64,000 bases of DNA from a virus, in IMG/VR virus record IMGVR_UViG_3300028844_004047, positions 16,350-80,349 of that record; one strand, given 5' to 3'. Each line of letters begins with the position of its first letter. The stretch's first letter is position 1. A program made the position numbers and the translations under genes. The notes below the pieces were generated by a model that was given only the letters and a program-made list of their open reading frames with translations, had not been told where the DNA came from and searched no databases. Shown here one piece after another: positions 16,336 through 62,027 of this stretch.

Positions 16336-16371
16336 TGCGTTATATTTTTTTATTTAATAAGGATAATAATA

Positions 16372-34671: not shown

Positions 34672-35922
34672 ATGAATCATTTAGTAGTTTATCCAGGTAG
34701 ATTTCATCCTTTTCATAAGGGCCATGCTAGTGTATATAATGCATTAGTAAAGAAATTCGGTGCGGATAAAGTATTCATATCAACAAGTGATAAAGTTGTT
34801 CCACCTAAAAGTCCTTTCTCATTCGAAGAAAAGAAAAAGATGATGATGCTTACAGGTGTTCCTGAAAGTGCTATTATTCAAACTAAAAATCCATACCAAG
34901 CACAAGAACTTGTTTCAAAGTATGATCCTGCAGATACTATATTAATGTTTGCAGTGAGTGAAAAGGATATGGCTGAAGATCCACGTTTTACATTCCAACC
35001 TAAAAAAGATGGTAGCCCTAGTTACTTTCAAAAAGCAGGTAAGGATATGCAGTCATTAGATAAGCATGGATATATTGTTGCAGTACCTACTTTAAGTTTT
35101 AAAGTATTAGGTAAGCCAATGAAAAGTGCAACAGAATTTAGAAGTAATTTTGCAAAAGCAGATACTGACACACAAGAGAAAATGATTACAGATTTATTTG
35201 GAAAATATGATCCTAGTGTACACGAATTAATGACAGCCAAAATTACAGAAATGGCAGATTTGTATAACAAGTATCCTGTTTATAAAAAAGTTCCAGAAGC
35301 CGCAGGTGTTGGTATTGTTACAAAACAAAACGCAACTAAAGATAGCCCTGTAGGCAGTGAATATGACAACGTAAAGAAATTAAAATTAAGTAGTAAAAGT
35401 AAAAAGCCGTACATCTCTAGAATGATGGAAGTAACAAAAGCAATAAAAGAGTTAAAAGAAGCAAAGGCGCTAACAGTTCAGGATTCCATGAAGATCAATA
35501 GTAAACTAGAACAGTTGAAAGCAGTAGTTCAAATACATAACAACACAAAGATTGTTGAAAGCCTGTATGCATTAGACAAAGAAGACATTATGAACAGTGA
35601 AGTATTAGTTCAAGGTGTTGGACGTTATAGCATTAAGTCATTAATGGCAAATGTTCATAGCAAGTTACAAGACTTGTCCGATGAAGCAGGTAAAAATGAA
35701 CCAACTAATTTTAAAAATATCAAAAGTAAACTAGACAGCGGAATATTGCAATTAATGGTTAAGTCGTTGGAAGATGCTTTTAATCAAATCGAAAATACTA
35801 GACGTGCAGGTGGTAAAGCCAGTCAAGGTATTCCTAAAAATGTTTTTGATAGTTTTGAAACAGATTTAAGGGAATCATGGCAAAAAAGAAAATTGACGAA
35901 AAACAATACTGGACAAAATTAA
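34672..35922 (+). CDS. Cytidylyltransferase/NMNAT-like nucleotidyltransferase with long C-terminal extension
   Basis: 416 residues. Residues 1-160 have the HxGH signature PGRFHPFHKGHASVYNAL and a distant SATEFRSNF (matching the ISSTxIR-type motif). These enzymes transfer a nucleotidyl group, for example onto NMN or phosphocholine. Residues ~190-416 are helical and unrelated to known transferases. Late expression and clustering with virion-accessory genes suggest the protein is packaged or acts in assembly (inference). Confidence 0.7.
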   Translation: MNHLVVYPGRFHPFHKGHASVYNALVKKFGADKVFISTSDKVVPPKSPFSFEEKKKMMMLTGVPESAIIQTKNPYQAQELVSKYDPADTILMFAVSEKDMAEDPRFTFQPKKDGSPSYFQKAGKDMQSLDKHGYIVAVPTLSFKVLGKPMKSATEFRSNFAKADTDTQEKMITDLFGKYDPSVHELMTAKITEMADLYNKYPVYKKVPEAAGVGIVTKQNATKDSPVGSEYDNVKKLKLSSKSKKPYISRMMEVTKAIKELKEAKALTVQDSMKINSKLEQLKAVVQIHNNTKIVESLYALDKEDIMNSEVLVQGVGRYSIKSLMANVHSKLQDLSDEAGKNEPTNFKNIKSKLDSGILQLMVKSLEDAFNQIENTRRAGGKASQGIPKNVFDSFETDLRESWQKRKLTKNNTGQN

Positions 35923-36173
35923 AAAAGAAGTCGCCTAAATACCCAGACTTTACTTGTCCTAGTGTAGACGATATACTAGAACGTATTGCAAAAGTTCAAA
36001 GTAAACAAAAATTATCACAGTGGCAACACAAATTGATAATAAAGAGAATGGAAGAGTTAAGAACAGACAATGAACAGTTGAGAGAAAGTGGCAGATACTG
36101 GCACGAAACTTGTAAAACAACAGTTGAAGATATGTTTGACCTTAACAAAGAAAGTAAATGGAAGAAAAAATAA
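35877..36173 (+). CDS. Small coiled-coil protein
   Basis: 98 residues, lysine-rich N-terminus (MAKKKIDEKQYWTKLKKK) and a heptad helix (KRMEELRTDNEQLRESGRYW). It overlaps the preceding gene by 46 bases in another frame and its stop overlaps the next start (TAATG). Function unknown. Confidence 0.55.
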   Translation: MAKKKIDEKQYWTKLKKKSPKYPDFTCPSVDDILERIAKVQSKQKLSQWQHKLIIKRMEELRTDNEQLRESGRYWHETCKTTVEDMFDLNKESKWKKK

Positions 36174-37594
36174 TGTCTTATTCGTGGTTAAAAGAATATT
36201 CAAATGACAGTGTACCTGTTACACAAGGTGACTTGAATAAACTTGAAGACTATGCTGACAAGTTATTTTCTAAAGTTGGTGTAGACGTAGAGTTTACTAG
36301 ACACTTTCTTGATAGAGTAAATGATACTCGTAACCAAAAACAAATTAATGTTGCAGAACTTATTAGAATCTTTAAGCAAGAGTACAAGTACTACGGCAAA
36401 AAGATTGCACAACTAGGTCCAGATGCAGAAGCAGTAATGAAAGATATGAGAACAGATGTTAACATACCATTTGCTTTACGTTGGGATAGTGCTAATAACG
36501 AACTAGATCTCATTGCTAAAACTGTGATGCGTAAGAAAGATTTTAAAACTAGTAATCCTGAATTTGCAGTAGAAGAATTTAGTTGGACTGAAGCAGAAGA
36601 AGATAACACTAAAGAATGGCAAAAGATGTATGGCGATTATGCAGAGACAAACATCTTTGAAGACTTGGCACCCGAGTCTGAATTATATGTAGATATGGAC
36701 GGCGTACTTGCAGACTTTTTTGGCGAGTGGGCTAAACTAATGGGTGTGGACAGTTGGCGTAATATTAAAGACATTGATTCAGCATTAAACAAAATTAAAC
36801 AACAGCCTAACTTTTGGATTAACTTACCAATGACAAGTAATGCTTTACAACTATTAAGTGCCATTAAAGCATATAAAGGCAAATATAATATATTAAGTGC
36901 TCCATTAGCCGGCGATAAAAATAGTGTCCCACAAAAGAAAGAATGGATTAAAAAGAATTTAAGTTCTTTCCCACCACAAAAAATTATTATAGATCCTAAC
37001 AAATCTAAATATGCTAAACAACCAGACGGAACACCAAACGGTTTAATTGATGACTATGGTGATAATATTCGTAAATGGGAACAAGCAGGCGGTATTGCTA
37101 TTAAACATAATAACAAAAACATAGATAGAACTATATCTAAATTGGATTCAGAAATTAACGAAGATCCATTCCATGATATTAGTAGATTTATTAACAGAAT
37201 AACTTCACCAAAATCATACAAATATGCAGTAGAATTGTTACATAAAATTCTACAACGTAAAGAACAAGAAGATGGTAAACTAAAACATAGTTTAGGTTAC
37301 TATGCTCAATCAGTAGCAAATACTATTAAAGGTGCTGATTGGCGTAATATAGTAAAATTATATATTAAGCAGTATGGCGATGAAGCCGTTTTACAAGACG
37401 ACGTGATAAAAGAAAACGGTATAATTACAGATCAAAATACTACTGATGATGTTAAACCGGGAGAAACACAACGACAAGCATTAAAATTTGGAAATAAGAT
37501 AGATAAAAAAGGTAGTCCGCCGTTACTACACACATCAGCGGCGAAAAACAGTGACCCTAACACATTAAGCAACTTAGGTATAGGGAATAAATAA
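36173..37594 (+). CDS. Multidomain late protein with HAD phosphatase domain
   Basis: 473 residues from ATG 36173 (GGAAG RBS; TAATG overlap); an upstream ATG at 36158 has no RBS. N-terminal MSYSWLKEY carries an LxE tripeptide near residue 8. Residues ~30-135 form a domain (VEFTRHFLDRVNDTRNQKQI, RWDSANNELDLIAKTVMRKK) recurrent in marine phage virion-region proteins. Residues ~165-325 are HAD-like (YVDMDGVLADFFGEW, ILSAPLAGDKNSV, GLIDDYGDNIRKWE). The tail is disordered. Confidence 0.65.
   Translation: MSYSWLKEYSNDSVPVTQGDLNKLEDYADKLFSKVGVDVEFTRHFLDRVNDTRNQKQINVAELIRIFKQEYKYYGKKIAQLGPDAEAVMKDMRTDVNIPFALRWDSANNELDLIAKTVMRKKDFKTSNPEFAVEEFSWTEAEEDNTKEWQKMYGDYAETNIFEDLAPESELYVDMDGVLADFFGEWAKLMGVDSWRNIKDIDSALNKIKQQPNFWINLPMTSNALQLLSAIKAYKGKYNILSAPLAGDKNSVPQKKEWIKKNLSSFPPQKIIIDPNKSKYAKQPDGTPNGLIDDYGDNIRKWEQAGGIAIKHNNKNIDRTISKLDSEINEDPFHDISRFINRITSPKSYKYAVELLHKILQRKEQEDGKLKHSLGYYAQSVANTIKGADWRNIVKLYIKQYGDEAVLQDDVIKENGIITDQNTTDDVKPGETQRQALKFGNKIDKKGSPPLLHTSAAKNSDPNTLSNLGIGNK
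37586..37593 (+). promoter_or_regulatory. Possible T4-like late promoter
   Basis: AATAAATA overlapping the preceding stop, 20 bases before ATG 37614 with AAGGAG between. Confidence 0.5.
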
Positions 37595-37613: not shown

Positions 37614-37919
37614 ATGGATTATCAAGATAGAGTACAATGGATCGTCGAGGAACTAGATAGTTTATTAGAAGATTTTACAGGAAAAGAAAAACCTGGAAGT
37701 CGCCCAGGCAGTTTAAAACGCAAAGCGGCACAGTACTTAGGCAAAGGTGCTGGCGATAAGTTAAGTAAAACAGATTTAAAAAACCTTAGAGCTAAAGCAA
37801 ATCATTTAAAAAAAAGTTCTAAGAAAAGTGAGAGAGACAGAGGCAACCAATTAGCAAAGCAAGTTAATTTTGCATATAACTTTAAGGTAGCCGAAGATAA
37901 AAACAATGAGATTATTTGA
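37614..37919 (+). CDS. Small basic late protein
   Basis: 101 residues. The N-terminus is helical and acidic; residues 23-90 are very basic (GSRPGSLKRKAAQYLGKGAG, NLRAKANHLKKSSKKSERDR), ending QVNFAYNFKVAED. It looks like a DNA-associated internal virion protein. It overlaps the next gene by fourteen bases. Confidence 0.58.
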   Translation: MDYQDRVQWIVEELDSLLEDFTGKEKPGSRPGSLKRKAAQYLGKGAGDKLSKTDLKNLRAKANHLKKSSKKSERDRGNQLAKQVNFAYNFKVAEDKNNEII

Positions 37920-38094
37920 ATTAGAACAAAAAGCATTAACGGAAGAACAGTTTGACGAAGCGGCTGGTAAAAAGGACGCTTGTTATCATAAAGTTAAATC
38001 ACGTTATAAAGTTTGGCCCAGTGCCTATGCCAGCGGTGCACTAGTTAAGTGTAGAAAAGTTGGTGCGGCTAATTGGGGTAAAAGTAAAAAGTAA
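37906..38094 (+). CDS. Small basic late protein with MRLFE N-terminus
   Basis: 62 residues. MRLFELEQKALTEEQ contains an LxE tripeptide (LFE) close to the N-terminus like its neighbours. The rest (CYHKVKSRYKVWPSAYASGA, LVKCRKVGAANWG) is a small basic two-cysteine module. Overlaps both flanking genes. Candidate internal head protein. Confidence 0.58.
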   Translation: MRLFELEQKALTEEQFDEAAGKKDACYHKVKSRYKVWPSAYASGALVKCRKVGAANWGKSKK

Positions 38095-44971: not shown

Positions 44972-45547
44972 ATGAAATACAAAGATATATTACCAGTCAA
45001 CGAAGGTGTACAATATCACCAAACAAATAAGATCCCGCTTCACGAATCAATTTTTCGTTTAGGCAGTGACGAATACTTTCAAATGTTTAGAGATGCAAGG
45101 AAACTATATGCAGAAGGTAAGTTAAAAGACTTACATCCATATGATGAAGAAATACTTCGCGATACATTGCTTGGAGAGTGGGAACAGTTAAGAGTAGGTA
45201 ATGTGCCTTTGGATATGATTATCAGCGAAGAGAATCATCAAGCATTCTTAGAAGCAGAGTATCAAGGCAAAAAAGTAAGTTTAAATAAACCTAAACGTGG
45301 TGGCAGTAAAAAGTTTTATGTGTATACAAAAAACAAAAAAGGCAATGTTATTAAAGTATCCTTTGGTGCCGACAGCGGTGGCGGAAAATTAGCAGTTAAG
45401 TTAAGAGATCCAAAAGCAAGAAAAGCCTTTGCAGATAGACATAATTGTGATCAAAAGAACGACAAAACTAAAGCAGGTTATTGGAGTTGCCGTTTACCAC
45501 GTTATGCAAAAAGTTTAGGATTAAGTGGTGGCGGAACTTGGTGGTAA
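44972..45547 (+). CDS. Late protein with basic conserved C-terminal module
   Basis: 191 residues. N-terminal MKYKDILPVNEGVQYHQTNK resembles the short leader peptides of neighbours. The C-terminal 90 residues (GGSKKFYVYTKNKKGNVIKV, RKAFADRHNCDQKNDKTKAG, YWSCRLPRYAK) form a basic module with two cysteines, conserved in marine T4-like phages in my reading. Probably DNA-associated virion protein. No Shine-Dalgarno before the start. Confidence 0.58.
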   Translation: MKYKDILPVNEGVQYHQTNKIPLHESIFRLGSDEYFQMFRDARKLYAEGKLKDLHPYDEEILRDTLLGEWEQLRVGNVPLDMIISEENHQAFLEAEYQGKKVSLNKPKRGGSKKFYVYTKNKKGNVIKVSFGADSGGGKLAVKLRDPKARKAFADRHNCDQKNDKTKAGYWSCRLPRYAKSLGLSGGGTWW

Positions 45548-45815: not shown

Positions 45816-45823
45816 GATAAATA
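45816..45823 (+). promoter_or_regulatory. T4-like late promoter
   Basis: GATAAATA overlapping the preceding stop, 22 bases before ATG 45846. Confidence 0.65.
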
Positions 45824-45845
45824 GTTTATATTATAGGAATACACA

Positions 45846-46910
45846 ATGAGAGCAAGACAGTTTTTAAAAGAATATACAGATTTAAGTACTGCTAAAGCAG
45901 AAATACTTAAAAGTATCAATGCCATTGACCCGGACACAAAAGATGAAGATGCCCGTGCAAAAGCAGAAAAAGTATTAGATAAGATTTACACTGTTCTTAA
46001 TAAAAACTCAGTGCTAGACAGATTCACATCAGTACTACCATCCATACTTAAAGATGAATACAACGATACGCAGATAATGAAAATTGCCGGTGAAATTGCG
46101 AAGGCGCCATTATCCTATGCTGAAAAAATGAAGTTCACAGAAAATCTAGCAAGTAATAAAGTAATCAATGCCAAAGTATTAGTAACACCAGGTACATATA
46201 CTATTGATAAATTATGTTATGATAGTTCACTTAACAAAGAAGTATTTTTACATTTAAGAAGTTACGGTGTTGGACAACAAATGAAAGGTCCAATGGAACA
46301 CGCATTGGCAATTTTAAGTTCAGGTATTAGTATTAAAGGTAAAGGTGATGTTACAGTAGGTACTACTCCTGTAGAAGTTAAAGCGGCAATTGGTGAGAAA
46401 AAAGGTTCAGGCGGTGGACGTTTTGGTGAAGCCGGTGAAGTTCCAGGTAGAGAGGCTATGATTGCCATCATACAATCATACGAATGGTTAGCAGGTCCTG
46501 TTAATGAATACCTAGAAGGACAAGCAAGTCTAAACGTTGAGAATTTTACAAAAATTGTTAATGCCACAGGTGCAGAACCGAGTGAACGTAAAAAACTTGG
46601 TGATGAGATATTTGGCAAAATCTTCCCAGGCAAGTCAGGACAAATTGTTTCAGTATTCCAAAATAAAAACGCAGACCCCAATGAAGTTAGAAAAGCATAT
46701 ATCAAAGCAAACTTTGATTGGTACAAAGATTCAGACATGGGCGGTGCTTGGCAAGTACTAGTAGGAATTAGTATGGCAGATAACTCCGTGGGAGTTATGA
46801 AGGATTCTAGCGATTTCGATAAAGTTGCTACTGCTAAAAAGAACCCAGCAATCATTACCACTGGTAAACCAATGGAAATGTTATTCCAATTTAATCCAAA
46901 ATTATCATAA
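45846..46910 (+). CDS. PD-(D/E)XK-like nuclease with capsid-targeting-like N-terminus
   Basis: 354 residues. MRARQFLKEY matches the pattern of the T4 capsid-targeting sequence MKTYQEFIAE, with LKE as a gp21-type cleavage site. Residues ~148-195 read GPMEHALAILSSGISIKGKG, DVTVGTTPVEVKAAIGEKKG. They show E151, D168 and the ExK pair E177/K179 in the order of restriction-endonuclease-fold nucleases, followed by a glycine-rich GGGRFGEAGE. It is expressed from a late promoter. Inference: a nuclease packaged in the head and injected with the genome. Confidence 0.58.
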   Translation: MRARQFLKEYTDLSTAKAEILKSINAIDPDTKDEDARAKAEKVLDKIYTVLNKNSVLDRFTSVLPSILKDEYNDTQIMKIAGEIAKAPLSYAEKMKFTENLASNKVINAKVLVTPGTYTIDKLCYDSSLNKEVFLHLRSYGVGQQMKGPMEHALAILSSGISIKGKGDVTVGTTPVEVKAAIGEKKGSGGGRFGEAGEVPGREAMIAIIQSYEWLAGPVNEYLEGQASLNVENFTKIVNATGAEPSERKKLGDEIFGKIFPGKSGQIVSVFQNKNADPNEVRKAYIKANFDWYKDSDMGGAWQVLVGISMADNSVGVMKDSSDFDKVATAKKNPAIITTGKPMEMLFQFNPKLS

Positions 46911-46916
46911 TTATAG

Positions 46917-46933
46917 GTTGACAACCAGTCAAC
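46917..46933 (+). promoter_or_regulatory. Inverted repeat overlapping a -35 element
   Basis: GTTGAC-AACCA-GTCAAC, a perfect 6-bp dyad that contains the -35 hexamer of the promoter at 46918; possible operator. Confidence 0.4.
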
Positions 46934-46989: not shown

Positions 46990-47268
46990 ATGAGTGCAGA
47001 TAAAGTATTCAATCCTGAAGAAAAAGCAAAATTGACTCAGGTAATTAATGAAGGCATTAGTGTAATGCAAGAAGTTGAAGATCTAAACGAAGGTCTTTCG
47101 GATACTGTTAAAGCGATTGCAGAAGAAATGCAAATCAAACCAGCAGTATTAAAAAAAGCAATCAGAACAGCCCACAAAGGAAACTTTCAAGAGAATGCAG
47201 ATGACTATGGTAGCATGGAGAATATCCTTGCAACAGTAGGAAAAATTGGCACCACTGGATCTAACTAG
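46990..47268 (+). CDS. Small helical protein, possibly DsbA-like dsDNA-binding
   Basis: 92 residues, helical (VINEGISVMQEVEDLNEGLS, then VKAIAEEMQIKPAVLKKAIR). The C-terminal helix-turn-helix-like part resembles the small dsDNA-binding protein DsbA of T4-like phages, but the match is weak by eye. Early promoter with dyad; AAAGGAG RBS. Its stop overlaps the GTG start of the next gene. Confidence 0.5.
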   Translation: MSADKVFNPEEKAKLTQVINEGISVMQEVEDLNEGLSDTVKAIAEEMQIKPAVLKKAIRTAHKGNFQENADDYGSMENILATVGKIGTTGSN

Positions 47269-52062: not shown

Positions 52063-53529
52063 ATGAAGACTGACTTAACTAAAGAACAGAATGACTATGC
52101 AGTCTTTTTGCCGGCATTAAGTACATTCTATGCACTATTTGTAGGTAGGCAACGTAGGCACGAATATATTGATTATAATCGTGTTCCTAGTTTCTTGCAA
52201 CATGGCGTAGAAAGTATTAACTGGTTGGCACCGGAAGGTATATGGAAATATAAATGGAGTCTACACTCGGCGGGTCATGCCAGTTTAGATTTACAAAAGG
52301 ATATGTATCGTGAAGATATGTATCGTGTTCGTGATAAAAACACTAGTTGGTTACTAGGGGACTCAGGTGGTTTCCAAATTGGTAAAGGTAAGTGGGAAGG
52401 CGACTGGCGTAAAGACAGTGGTTGTCCACAAGCACAGAAAAAACGAGACGGTGTTTTAAAATGGATGGACAAGTTCATGGACTACGGAATGATTTTAGAT
52501 ATTCCGGCTTGGGTAAGTCGTTCCCCAGAAGGTGCGGCGGCAAGTAAGATTAGTTCATATCAAGAAGCAGTAGAAGGCACACAACAAAATAACGAATATT
52601 TCATTAAAAACAGAAACGGTAATTGTAAGTTCTTAAATGTATTACAAGGTGAGAACTTCCAACAAGCCGATGACTGGTATAATCAAATGAAACATTTCAG
52701 TGATCCTAAATTATATCCAGATGCACACTTTAATGGTTGGGCAATGGGTGGTCAAAATATGTGTGACTTACACCTAGCACTAAAACGTGTAGTAGAACTT
52801 CGCTTTGATGGTTTACTTGAGAAAGGCAAACAAGATGTTATGCACTTCTTAGGTACAAGTAAACTTGAATGGGCATTGGTACTAACGGCTATACAACGTG
52901 GTATTAGAAAAAATCATAATGAGAATTTTACTGTAACTTTTGATTGTGCAAGTCCTTTCTTATGTACTGCTAATGGTCAGATTTATACTGGACATAGAAC
53001 TGTACAAGATGAAAAGTGGAGTTACTTGATGTCTAGTGCACCAGATGATAAAGCATATAGTACTGATACAAGACCTTATGATGATTTAGCAACAGATTTC
53101 TTTACTAAACAAGGAATGAATTGGATGCCTACTCCTATTACAAAAGGACTAAAAGTAAATGACGTTTGTATTTACAGTCCAACAGATGTTAATAGAATGG
53201 GTGTGTCTACTAAAACTAGTTGGGATAGTTTTGCATATGCACTTATGATGAATCATAATGTTTATACACATATTAATAGTGTACAAGAAGCAAATAGACA
53301 ATATGACTCAGGCAATTATCCTAATATGCTTATTAATGATACATTTGATAAACAAGAAGTTAAAGATGTTATTGCTAGAGTATTTGAAATTGATAATAAA
53401 GATCAAGCATTAGCATTAATTGACGAGCATACAAAATTATGGATGAAAGTAGTTGGTACACGTGGAGCAGTTGGTAAAAAAACTATTAACAGTTCTGCAC
53501 AATTTAACAATTTATTCAGTGAGAATTAA
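52063..53529 (+). CDS. dpdA: DpdA/TGT-like 7-deazaguanine transglycosylase
   Basis: 488 residues. Motifs match tRNA-guanine transglycosylases: LLGDSGGFQIGKGK (D100, as in SDSGGFQ), MILDIPAW (D146), NVLQGE (192-197, as in GIVQG), GWAMGG (225-230, as in GLAVGG), HFLGTSKLEW, and the nucleophile-like TFDCASPF (D294). The tRNA-enzyme zinc motif (CxCxxC...H) is not visible, consistent with a DNA-directed DpdA homologue. It would swap guanine in DNA for a 7-deazaguanine base. Cotranscribed with gp45; folE and a YhhQ-type transporter lie downstream. Confidence 0.75.
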   Translation: MKTDLTKEQNDYAVFLPALSTFYALFVGRQRRHEYIDYNRVPSFLQHGVESINWLAPEGIWKYKWSLHSAGHASLDLQKDMYREDMYRVRDKNTSWLLGDSGGFQIGKGKWEGDWRKDSGCPQAQKKRDGVLKWMDKFMDYGMILDIPAWVSRSPEGAAASKISSYQEAVEGTQQNNEYFIKNRNGNCKFLNVLQGENFQQADDWYNQMKHFSDPKLYPDAHFNGWAMGGQNMCDLHLALKRVVELRFDGLLEKGKQDVMHFLGTSKLEWALVLTAIQRGIRKNHNENFTVTFDCASPFLCTANGQIYTGHRTVQDEKWSYLMSSAPDDKAYSTDTRPYDDLATDFFTKQGMNWMPTPITKGLKVNDVCIYSPTDVNRMGVSTKTSWDSFAYALMMNHNVYTHINSVQEANRQYDSGNYPNMLINDTFDKQEVKDVIARVFEIDNKDQALALIDEHTKLWMKVVGTRGAVGKKTINSSAQFNNLFSEN

Positions 53530-59075: not shown

Positions 59076-59762
59076 ATGAGTATAAGTGAAGAAATTAAAA
59101 ATCGTATCCAGGCTGATGGCTCTCGCTATTGGGCTGGAGACAATATTAGCAAGTATTTAGAAGAAGGTGATAAGCAAAAACTTATCGATGAACTTACACC
59201 TAAGTTTGAAGCAGTGCTAGACAGTTTGGTAATTGATAGAAACAATGATCCAAATAGTATGGACACTGGCAAACGTCTTGCTAAAATGTACATCAATGAA
59301 CTAATGGCAGGGCGTTACGAAGAAATGCCTAATGCAACTGCATTTCCCAATCATATTGAAAATGGTTATAAAGGTATGCTGGTAGTACGAAGTGAACTTA
59401 AAAGTGTTTGTTCGCATCATCACCAACCAGTAAGTGGAGTGGCATATATTGGAATCATTGCGGCAGAACATTTAATTGGTTTGTCTAAGTATACTAGGAT
59501 TGCACAATGGTGTGCAAGACGTGGTACATTACAAGAAGAACTTAATAATGTTATTGCTGATGAGATTCAAAAAGCAACTGGTAGTCCTAATGTAGGTGTA
59601 TACATTCAAGCAACACATGGTTGTTGTGAGAATAGAGGAATTATGGCACATAGTTCTTTAACACAGACAACTGTATTACGTGGTGCTTTTAATGAAGACA
59701 TGGGCACTAAAAAAGAGTTTATGGATAATATTAAACTACAACAGGAATTCGCTCCTAGATAG
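59076..59762 (+). CDS. folE: GTP cyclohydrolase I
   Basis: 228 residues, full length. Zinc ligands C112 and H115 are in KSVCSHHHQPVSG and C183 in THGCCENRGIM; GLSKYTRI and the N-terminal DTGKRLAKMY (usually DTPxRxAK) are conserved. It makes dihydroneopterin triphosphate from GTP, the first step of both folate and 7-deazaguanine (queuosine) synthesis. With DpdA, the T-fold protein and YhhQ in the same window, a DNA-modification role is likely, but folate supply is an alternative. Confidence 0.92.
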   Translation: MSISEEIKNRIQADGSRYWAGDNISKYLEEGDKQKLIDELTPKFEAVLDSLVIDRNNDPNSMDTGKRLAKMYINELMAGRYEEMPNATAFPNHIENGYKGMLVVRSELKSVCSHHHQPVSGVAYIGIIAAEHLIGLSKYTRIAQWCARRGTLQEELNNVIADEIQKATGSPNVGVYIQATHGCCENRGIMAHSSLTQTTVLRGAFNEDMGTKKEFMDNIKLQQEFAPR

Positions 59763-61418: not shown

Positions 61419-62027
61419 ATGTTTAATTTTAAGAACGTAGATAAAACTATGCTTATGAAACTTGTAGCACTGCACGTTATTGTGATTACAGTATCAAATG
61501 CATTAGTGGCAATACCAGTAGAAATATTTGGTGTTAAATTAACCTGGGCGGCATTTACTTTCCCATTAGTTGTTATTGCAACAGACTTAACAGTTAGATT
61601 GTTAGGTAAAGAGATTGCAAGGTCAACTATCGCGGCGGCATATCCATTAGCAATTATTGGATCTATCGCAGTTGTATTGGCAGAAGGTGCACCTGGATCA
61701 GTTGCATTAAGAATTGGTTTTGCAAGTGCTACAGCATATGCAATTGGTACAATGCTTGACGTTTATGTATTCCAATACATTAGAGAAGCATTTAAAAACA
61801 ATTGGTGGTTAGCACCAGCAGTATCAACTGTTGCGGCAAACATTATTGATACTTACACATTCTTTGCAGTTGCGTTTAATAACAGTGCTGATGAATATAT
61901 GGCGGCAAACTGGATTGAAATTGCAGGTTCTCAAACTGTACTTAAAATCGCAGTAGGTTTGTTAGTATTCTTACCAGCATATGGTATTTTACTAAACCAA
62001 CTACAAAAGAAGTACAAGTTAAAATAA
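61419..62027 (+). CDS. yhhQ: YhhQ-type queuosine-precursor transporter (VUT family)
   Basis: 202 residues with six hydrophobic segments. VSNALVAIPVEIFGVKLTWA, then FTFPLVVIATDLTVRLLGKE is the COG1738 signature (the TD-x-x-x-x-x-GK segment), and ANIIDTYTFFAVAF fits the second conserved motif. YhhQ imports preQ0/preQ1 or queuine-type bases. In the infected cell it would raise the 7-deazaguanine pool for DpdA. CGGAGGAAA is a strong RBS; a terminator follows. Confidence 0.8.
   Translation: MFNFKNVDKTMLMKLVALHVIVITVSNALVAIPVEIFGVKLTWAAFTFPLVVIATDLTVRLLGKEIARSTIAAAYPLAIIGSIAVVLAEGAPGSVALRIGFASATAYAIGTMLDVYVFQYIREAFKNNWWLAPAVSTVAANIIDTYTFFAVAFNNSADEYMAANWIEIAGSQTVLKIAVGLLVFLPAYGILLNQLQKKYKLK

Follow-up and report, generated by a model that had tools for sequence, protein, structure and literature searches.

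The DNA analysed here is a stretch of 64,000 nucleotides (the window) from the IMG/VR virus record IMGVR_UViG_3300028844_004047, positions 16,350 to 80,349; the record is itself a fragment of 80,349 bases. Sequence comparison places the virus among the phages of the T4 superfamily, and the DNA polymerase encoded in the window is closest to those of the jumbo phages Phosso (49% identity) and Atu_ph07 (46%). A marine origin of the phage is suggested by the related cyanophage and marine records. The gene under study encodes a protein comprised of a short N-terminal leader, a helical region and a C-terminal domain predicted to be a PD-(D/E)XK nuclease (Table 1). The protein is proposed to be carried in the phage head and delivered with the viral DNA. 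The open reading frame is a genuine gene; an antisense open reading frame of 220 residues (46262-46924, minus strand) overlaps it and is without any sign of being a gene.

Table 1. Features of the putative nuclease gene and of the inferred co-cargo genes, in window positions
Feature	Position	Strand	Basis
Nuclease gene, 354 residues and stop, protein start MRARQFLKE	45846..46910	+	open reading frame and translation
N-terminal leader MRARQFLKE, predicted prohead-protease cut after E9 (FLKE↓YTD)	45846..45872	+	family conservation, likeness to T4
Helical N-terminal region, residues 10-104, lower model confidence	45873..46157	+	full-length AlphaFold2 model
PD-(D/E)XK nuclease domain (predicted), residues 105-354 (model from 104)	46158..46907	+	AlphaFold2 model m9796da06f7ab, structure comparison
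E151, invariant, start of first core helix	46296..46298	+	alignment, model
D168, invariant, predicted catalytic Asp	46347..46349	+	alignment, model
E177-x-K179, invariant ExK motif, second core strand	46374..46382	+	alignment, model
R192 in GGGRFG, invariant, start of third core strand	46419..46421	+	alignment, model
Predicted T4-type late promoter GATAAATA	45816..45823	+	sequence; conserved upstream of family genes
AGGA, likely ribosome-binding site, 7 nucleotides 5' of the ATG	45835..45838	+	sequence
Inferred co-cargo, 478 residues, NT5C-like domain; C-terminal part is a module in the L030 and L032 fusions	36158..37594	+	
Inferred co-cargo, 62 residues; fused to nuclease in L030-L032, L133, L134	37906..38094	+	blastp 74-79% identity, boundary comparison
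Inferred co-cargo MRASEFISE↓DLRAWF; fused to nuclease in L030-L032, L133, L134	38094..38396	+	boundary [LMV]xE

A predicted PD-(D/E)XK domain in a new protein family of phages

Successive profile searches of IMG/VR extended the family from 9 to 14, 19 and 52 loci and finally to 123 matching stretches, with identities down to about 24%, so that the family numbers at least 123 such stretches in that database. No relative of the protein has been identified among the INPHARED phages or in bacterial and archaeal genomes (one per species), and Pfam, PHROGs, NCBIfam and the sequences of the PDB gave no credible match. A search of BFVD matched three uncharacterised phage proteins that probably belong to the same family. 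On these comparisons the protein belongs to a family not described previously. In five close relatives (L013, L014, L017, L018 and L085) the gene is kept before the DNA polymerase gene, and in distant relatives it sits in differing gene contexts.

Residues and leaders were compared in an alignment of 53 members that share 95 to 25% identity. The earlier note had pointed to a restriction-endonuclease-fold pattern made up of E151, D168, E177-x-K179 and a Gly-rich segment. These elements are present at the positions named, the Gly-rich segment being GSGGGRFG at residues 187-194, and the four acidic and basic residues are invariant in 53 of 53 members down to 25% identity. The pattern is not a matter of chance, because it is invariant across the alignment. 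G148, G167, G191, R192, G194, G197 and Y293 are likewise invariant. The domain has 15 invariant columns, 14 of which fall inside one stretch of 57 residues, and E151, D168, E177, K179 and R192 are its sole invariant charged residues.

The AlphaFold2 model of the full-length protein has a mean predicted local distance difference test score (pLDDT) of 86 and a predicted template modelling score (pTM) of 0.78; for residues 104-354 modelled separately the values are 92.9 and 0.90. The modelled core follows the order helix (E), strand (D), strand (ExK), strand, helices, strand, as in PD-(D/E)XK enzymes. In domain numbering the elements are a helix at 48-54, strands at 66-68, 71-78 and 89-93, a long helix at 175-191 and a strand at 201-206. 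E151 opens the core helix and D168 lies just before the first strand, with the ExK motif on the second and R192 opening the third.

Comparison of the model of residues 104-354 by VIA-align, among the chains ranked by Foldseek, placed at ranks 1 to 6 HinP1I (2fkc and 1ynm), MspI (1sa3), archaeal Hjc (1gef), PvuII (1ni0) and ThaI (3ndh). All six are PD-(D/E)XK proteins, with weak Z scores of 3.7 to 2.9, and unrelated folds appear from rank 7. Because the individual scores are weak, the structural evidence consists in the agreement of all six top matches. With the full-length model, Foldseek and VIA-align returned mostly matches to the helical N-terminal region. The assignment to PD-(D/E)XK nucleases made in the earlier note is thus well supported as a prediction, resting on the invariant catalytic residues and on the order of the modelled elements; the accompanying structural matches are weak.

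Leader, late promoter and fused relatives

The N-terminal leader of the protein ends in a site of the type [LIV]-x-E↓Y, where the arrow marks the position at which the T4 prohead protease gp21 would cut. This site is found in 52 of the 53 members at the end of leaders of varying length. Of the positions before the cut, any residue may occupy the second and the third is hydrophobic, and Glu and Tyr are invariant in these 52. In many members, not all, Phe precedes the hydrophobic residue, as compared with the targeting positions 4 and 7 of T4 leaders. T4 IPII and IPIII begin with MKTYQEFIAE↓A, and processing of IPIII has been shown to be set by residues 8 and 10 (PMC9026906). Leaders of this type exceed the shuffled expectation among the open reading frames of the window (6 against 1.4) and of a 306 kb relative, G001 (15 against 5.3), whose nuclease is 81% identical to the window copy.

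Genes for the gp21 family (PF03420) are present in G001 and in a second relative, G005. The gp23 homologues on both contigs carry HLSE↓A and YLSE↓A, at the position of the T4 gp23 cut.

A T4-type late promoter, GATAAATA, lies upstream of the gene. The count of this octamer in the window is not enriched (8 found, 7.1 expected). The sites NATAAATA are biased in position, with 18 on the plus strand and 1 on the minus strand, 15 of the 18 lying 5-41 bp before an open reading frame that starts with ATG. Among the standalone family genes [ACG]TAAATA occurs within 50 bp upstream in 30 of 35, against 79 of 423 other open reading frames of the same loci. The gene is therefore predicted to be transcribed late, which bears out the late promoter proposed earlier from the sequence. 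The plus-strand NATAAATA sites ahead of open reading frames also provide a map of the late genes of the window.

In 13 relatives the nuclease forms the C-terminal part of a protein of 915-2225 residues, and in 13 of 13 a protease-type site is positioned exactly at the fusion junction (KLNE↓Y, KLFE↓Y, LLKE↓Y, LINE↓Y, VINE↓Y and others). When six of the fusions were aligned, 32 of the 178 Glu residues of one of them, L112, were kept in all; 5 of these 32, among them the Glu at the junction, have Ile, Leu or Val two residues before. The fused proteins themselves begin with a leader of the same kind (MKFKDVRTIESILTE↓YG). Fusions occur at about 50% and at about 27% identity to the window copy and are therefore found in at least two branches of the family.

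Other modules of the fused proteins match separate genes of the window, at 36158 (C-terminal part), 37906 and 38094. The boundary of the 38094 module reads ISE↓D in the standalone protein and LDE↓N, MDE↓D or VEE↓N when fused. The correspondence of modules to separate genes and the shared boundary sites point to a set of head cargo proteins, each of which would have its own gene in the window virus and be part of a fusion in some relatives. An Amidoligase_2 domain (PF12224, above cut-off) precedes the nuclease in the fusions L034 (3675-9044) and L123 (2692-7062).

Some observations concern the neighbouring and related genes. Homologues of the 62 residue protein at 37906-38094 occur in 366 phage records, most of them of cyanophages, and are annotated as hypothetical; Syn9 gp114 is among them. 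A cytidylyltransferase-like gene is encoded at 34672; a cytidylyltransferase of the cyanophage core has been detected in S-SM1 virions (PMC3037559). A 191 residue protein (MKYKDILPVNEG; phrog_7595) encoded at 44972-45547 is a possible leader-bearing neighbour, and its gene is syntenic with that of the nuclease in close relatives. The gene at 46990-47268, 3' of the nuclease, matches phrog_639, a transcriptional regulator, with a weak match to the T4 DsbA family PF11126.

Possible roles of the nuclease

Packaging of the nuclease in the head, as claimed in the earlier note, is well supported by comparison: the gp21-like site is conserved, also within fusions, a late promoter precedes the gene, and gp21 is encoded in relatives. 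We propose, with a probability of roughly 60%, that the gene encodes a PD-(D/E)XK DNA nuclease that serves as head cargo of a T4-superfamily phage, is ejected into the next cell and cuts DNA there. The protein would be made late in infection and carried by its leader into the core of the assembling prohead, where a gp21-type protease would cut after E9. The mature nuclease would stay in the capsid with the DNA and enter the next cell along with it, to cut DNA of the host or of a rival element; such cutting on entry is a reasonable supposition. In the fused relatives, the prohead protease would free the nuclease from the long multi-domain protein at the same site. When staphylococcal nuclease was joined to T4 IPIII, the fusion was taken up into the head and processed there, and the phage DNA was digested once calcium was added (PMC9026906); packaging of a nuclease is therefore physically possible.

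Several points weigh against this proposal. The member L117 is without the cleavage site, and the search for the leader motif also catches some unrelated open reading frames. The VIA-align Z scores of 2.9-3.7 are weak when taken alone, and Foldseek found no significant match in the PDB. Neither gp21 nor gp23 is found in the 80 kb record of the window, which is a fragment. A nuclease made late could also act in replication or packaging within the same cell.

The best surviving alternative develops this last point. The protein would be a late DNA-processing nuclease, such as a Holliday-junction resolvase or an enzyme that trims branches before packaging, and the LxE site would serve only to remove it or free it from the prohead. 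The presence of archaeal Hjc among the six best structural matches is in accordance with such a role, and jumbo phages are reported to have resolvase candidates of the restriction endonuclease fold (PMC7824862). Searches of G001 and four other relatives found neither endonuclease VII nor RuvC, so that the role of resolvase may be open; the search for endonuclease VII was, however, also silent in the control, and the absence is thus not established. A resolvase leaves unexplained the prohead-protease site in standalone and fused forms as well as the fusion to other modules, and we consider it unlikely.

It is improbable that the nuclease is packaged and works inside the head or at the exit of the DNA, trimming or guarding DNA ends in the manner of head-completion proteins. 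The predicted location in the head would suit this, T4 gp4 is a head protein of family PF08722, and packaged proteins can act at ejection. Against it, a separate PF08722 (gp4-type) protein is encoded in G001, G005 and G015, and the nuclease family, unlike core head genes, is missing from the INPHARED isolates. Identity of the nuclease with gp4 was rejected on the same separate occurrence and on the lack of a Pfam match.

The PD-(D/E)XK domain could also be catalytically silent and act as a DNA-binding scaffold or internal protein, as several internal head proteins are non-enzymatic and T4 IPI binds a nuclease and thereby inhibits it (PMC9958956), but the invariance of all four catalytic residues in 53 of 53 members at 25-95% identity makes this very improbable. 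A free-standing homing endonuclease that invaded the genome, to which the differing contexts in distant relatives might be ascribed, is hardly credible given the constant place before the DNA polymerase gene in the five close relatives, in a comparison that covered carriers of the gene, and a protease-site leader and late promoter that are atypical of homing genes.

A nuclease delivered in the virion raises the question of how the DNA of the phage itself is spared. The window carries a candidate set of 7-deazaguanine DNA modification genes (52063-53529, 59076-59762 and 61419-62027), and 7-deazaguanine bases are known to shield phage DNA from restriction (PMC6884629). A 488 residue protein with the motif GDSGGFQIGKG resembles TGT/DpdA by eye, is confirmed by no library, and is homologous to uncharacterised proteins of PA5oct-like, Phosso and Vibrio 2.275 phages. 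Also encoded in the window are FolE and a transporter of queuosine precursors, of preQ0/preQ1 type (TIGR00697, above cut-off). A homologue of the 52063 gene is present in 5 of 21 records including the window and the transporter in 3 of 20 relatives, mostly close relatives, many of the records being fragments. These genes were rejected on those counts as a general partner of the nuclease, and the link amounts to no more than a lead, since distant nuclease carriers are mostly without them in the records compared. The fuller proposal, in which a restriction-like nuclease loaded through the prohead protease, and sometimes released from a polyprotein, would destroy unmodified host or rival DNA on delivery while 7-deazaguanine spares the phage's own, is rather improbable.

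Comparison with known systems

Among the proteins that T4-like phages are known to pack into the head are inhibitors and enzymes that modify the host, IPI and Alt being examples. Like T4 IPI, IPII, IPIII and Alt, the window protein has a short leader ending in hydrophobic-x-E (QFLKE↓Y, compared with EFIAE↓A in IPII and IPIII), and it shares with the T4 internal head proteins a late promoter and, in relatives, a protease of gp21 type. None of the four is a nuclease, IPI being an inhibitor of one, and the mature sequence of the window protein, whose packaging is predicted, is unrelated to theirs. A nuclease family carried in this way would add attack on DNA to the virion-delivered functions of T4-superfamily phages, and in the fused forms one would see a polyprotein of cargo that is cleaved into its parts within the prohead.

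With HinP1I, MspI, ThaI, PvuII and archaeal Hjc the domain shares the pattern of catalytic residues and the order of core elements. It differs from them in a large insert of helices that separates the third strand from the core helix, in the additional helical N-terminal region of the protein and in having no sequence similarity to PDB entries.

Dar of phage P1 and the polyvalent proteins (Iyer et al. 2017, PMC5512222) are likewise head-packaged and proteolytically processed effectors, and the fused relatives resemble them in being multi-domain. The window protein has the predicted nuclease alone; some of its relatives are multi-domain (for example L034 with Amidoligase_2), with the PD-(D/E)XK domain at the C-terminus. 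The ejection proteins of SPN3US and phiKZ offer a further parallel, in that numerous head proteins of these phages lose an N-terminal propeptide by cleavage after Glu (PMC5694885, PMC9026906); their propeptides are much longer, and the word nuclease is absent from the SPN3US papers searched.

With the terms used, the literature search returned no paper on a naturally packaged nuclease, and a family of naturally packaged PD-(D/E)XK cargo appears to be new. The fusion of T4 IPIII with staphylococcal nuclease (PMC9026906) did place a nuclease in T4 heads, but by artificial means, and the family identified here appears to be its natural counterpart.
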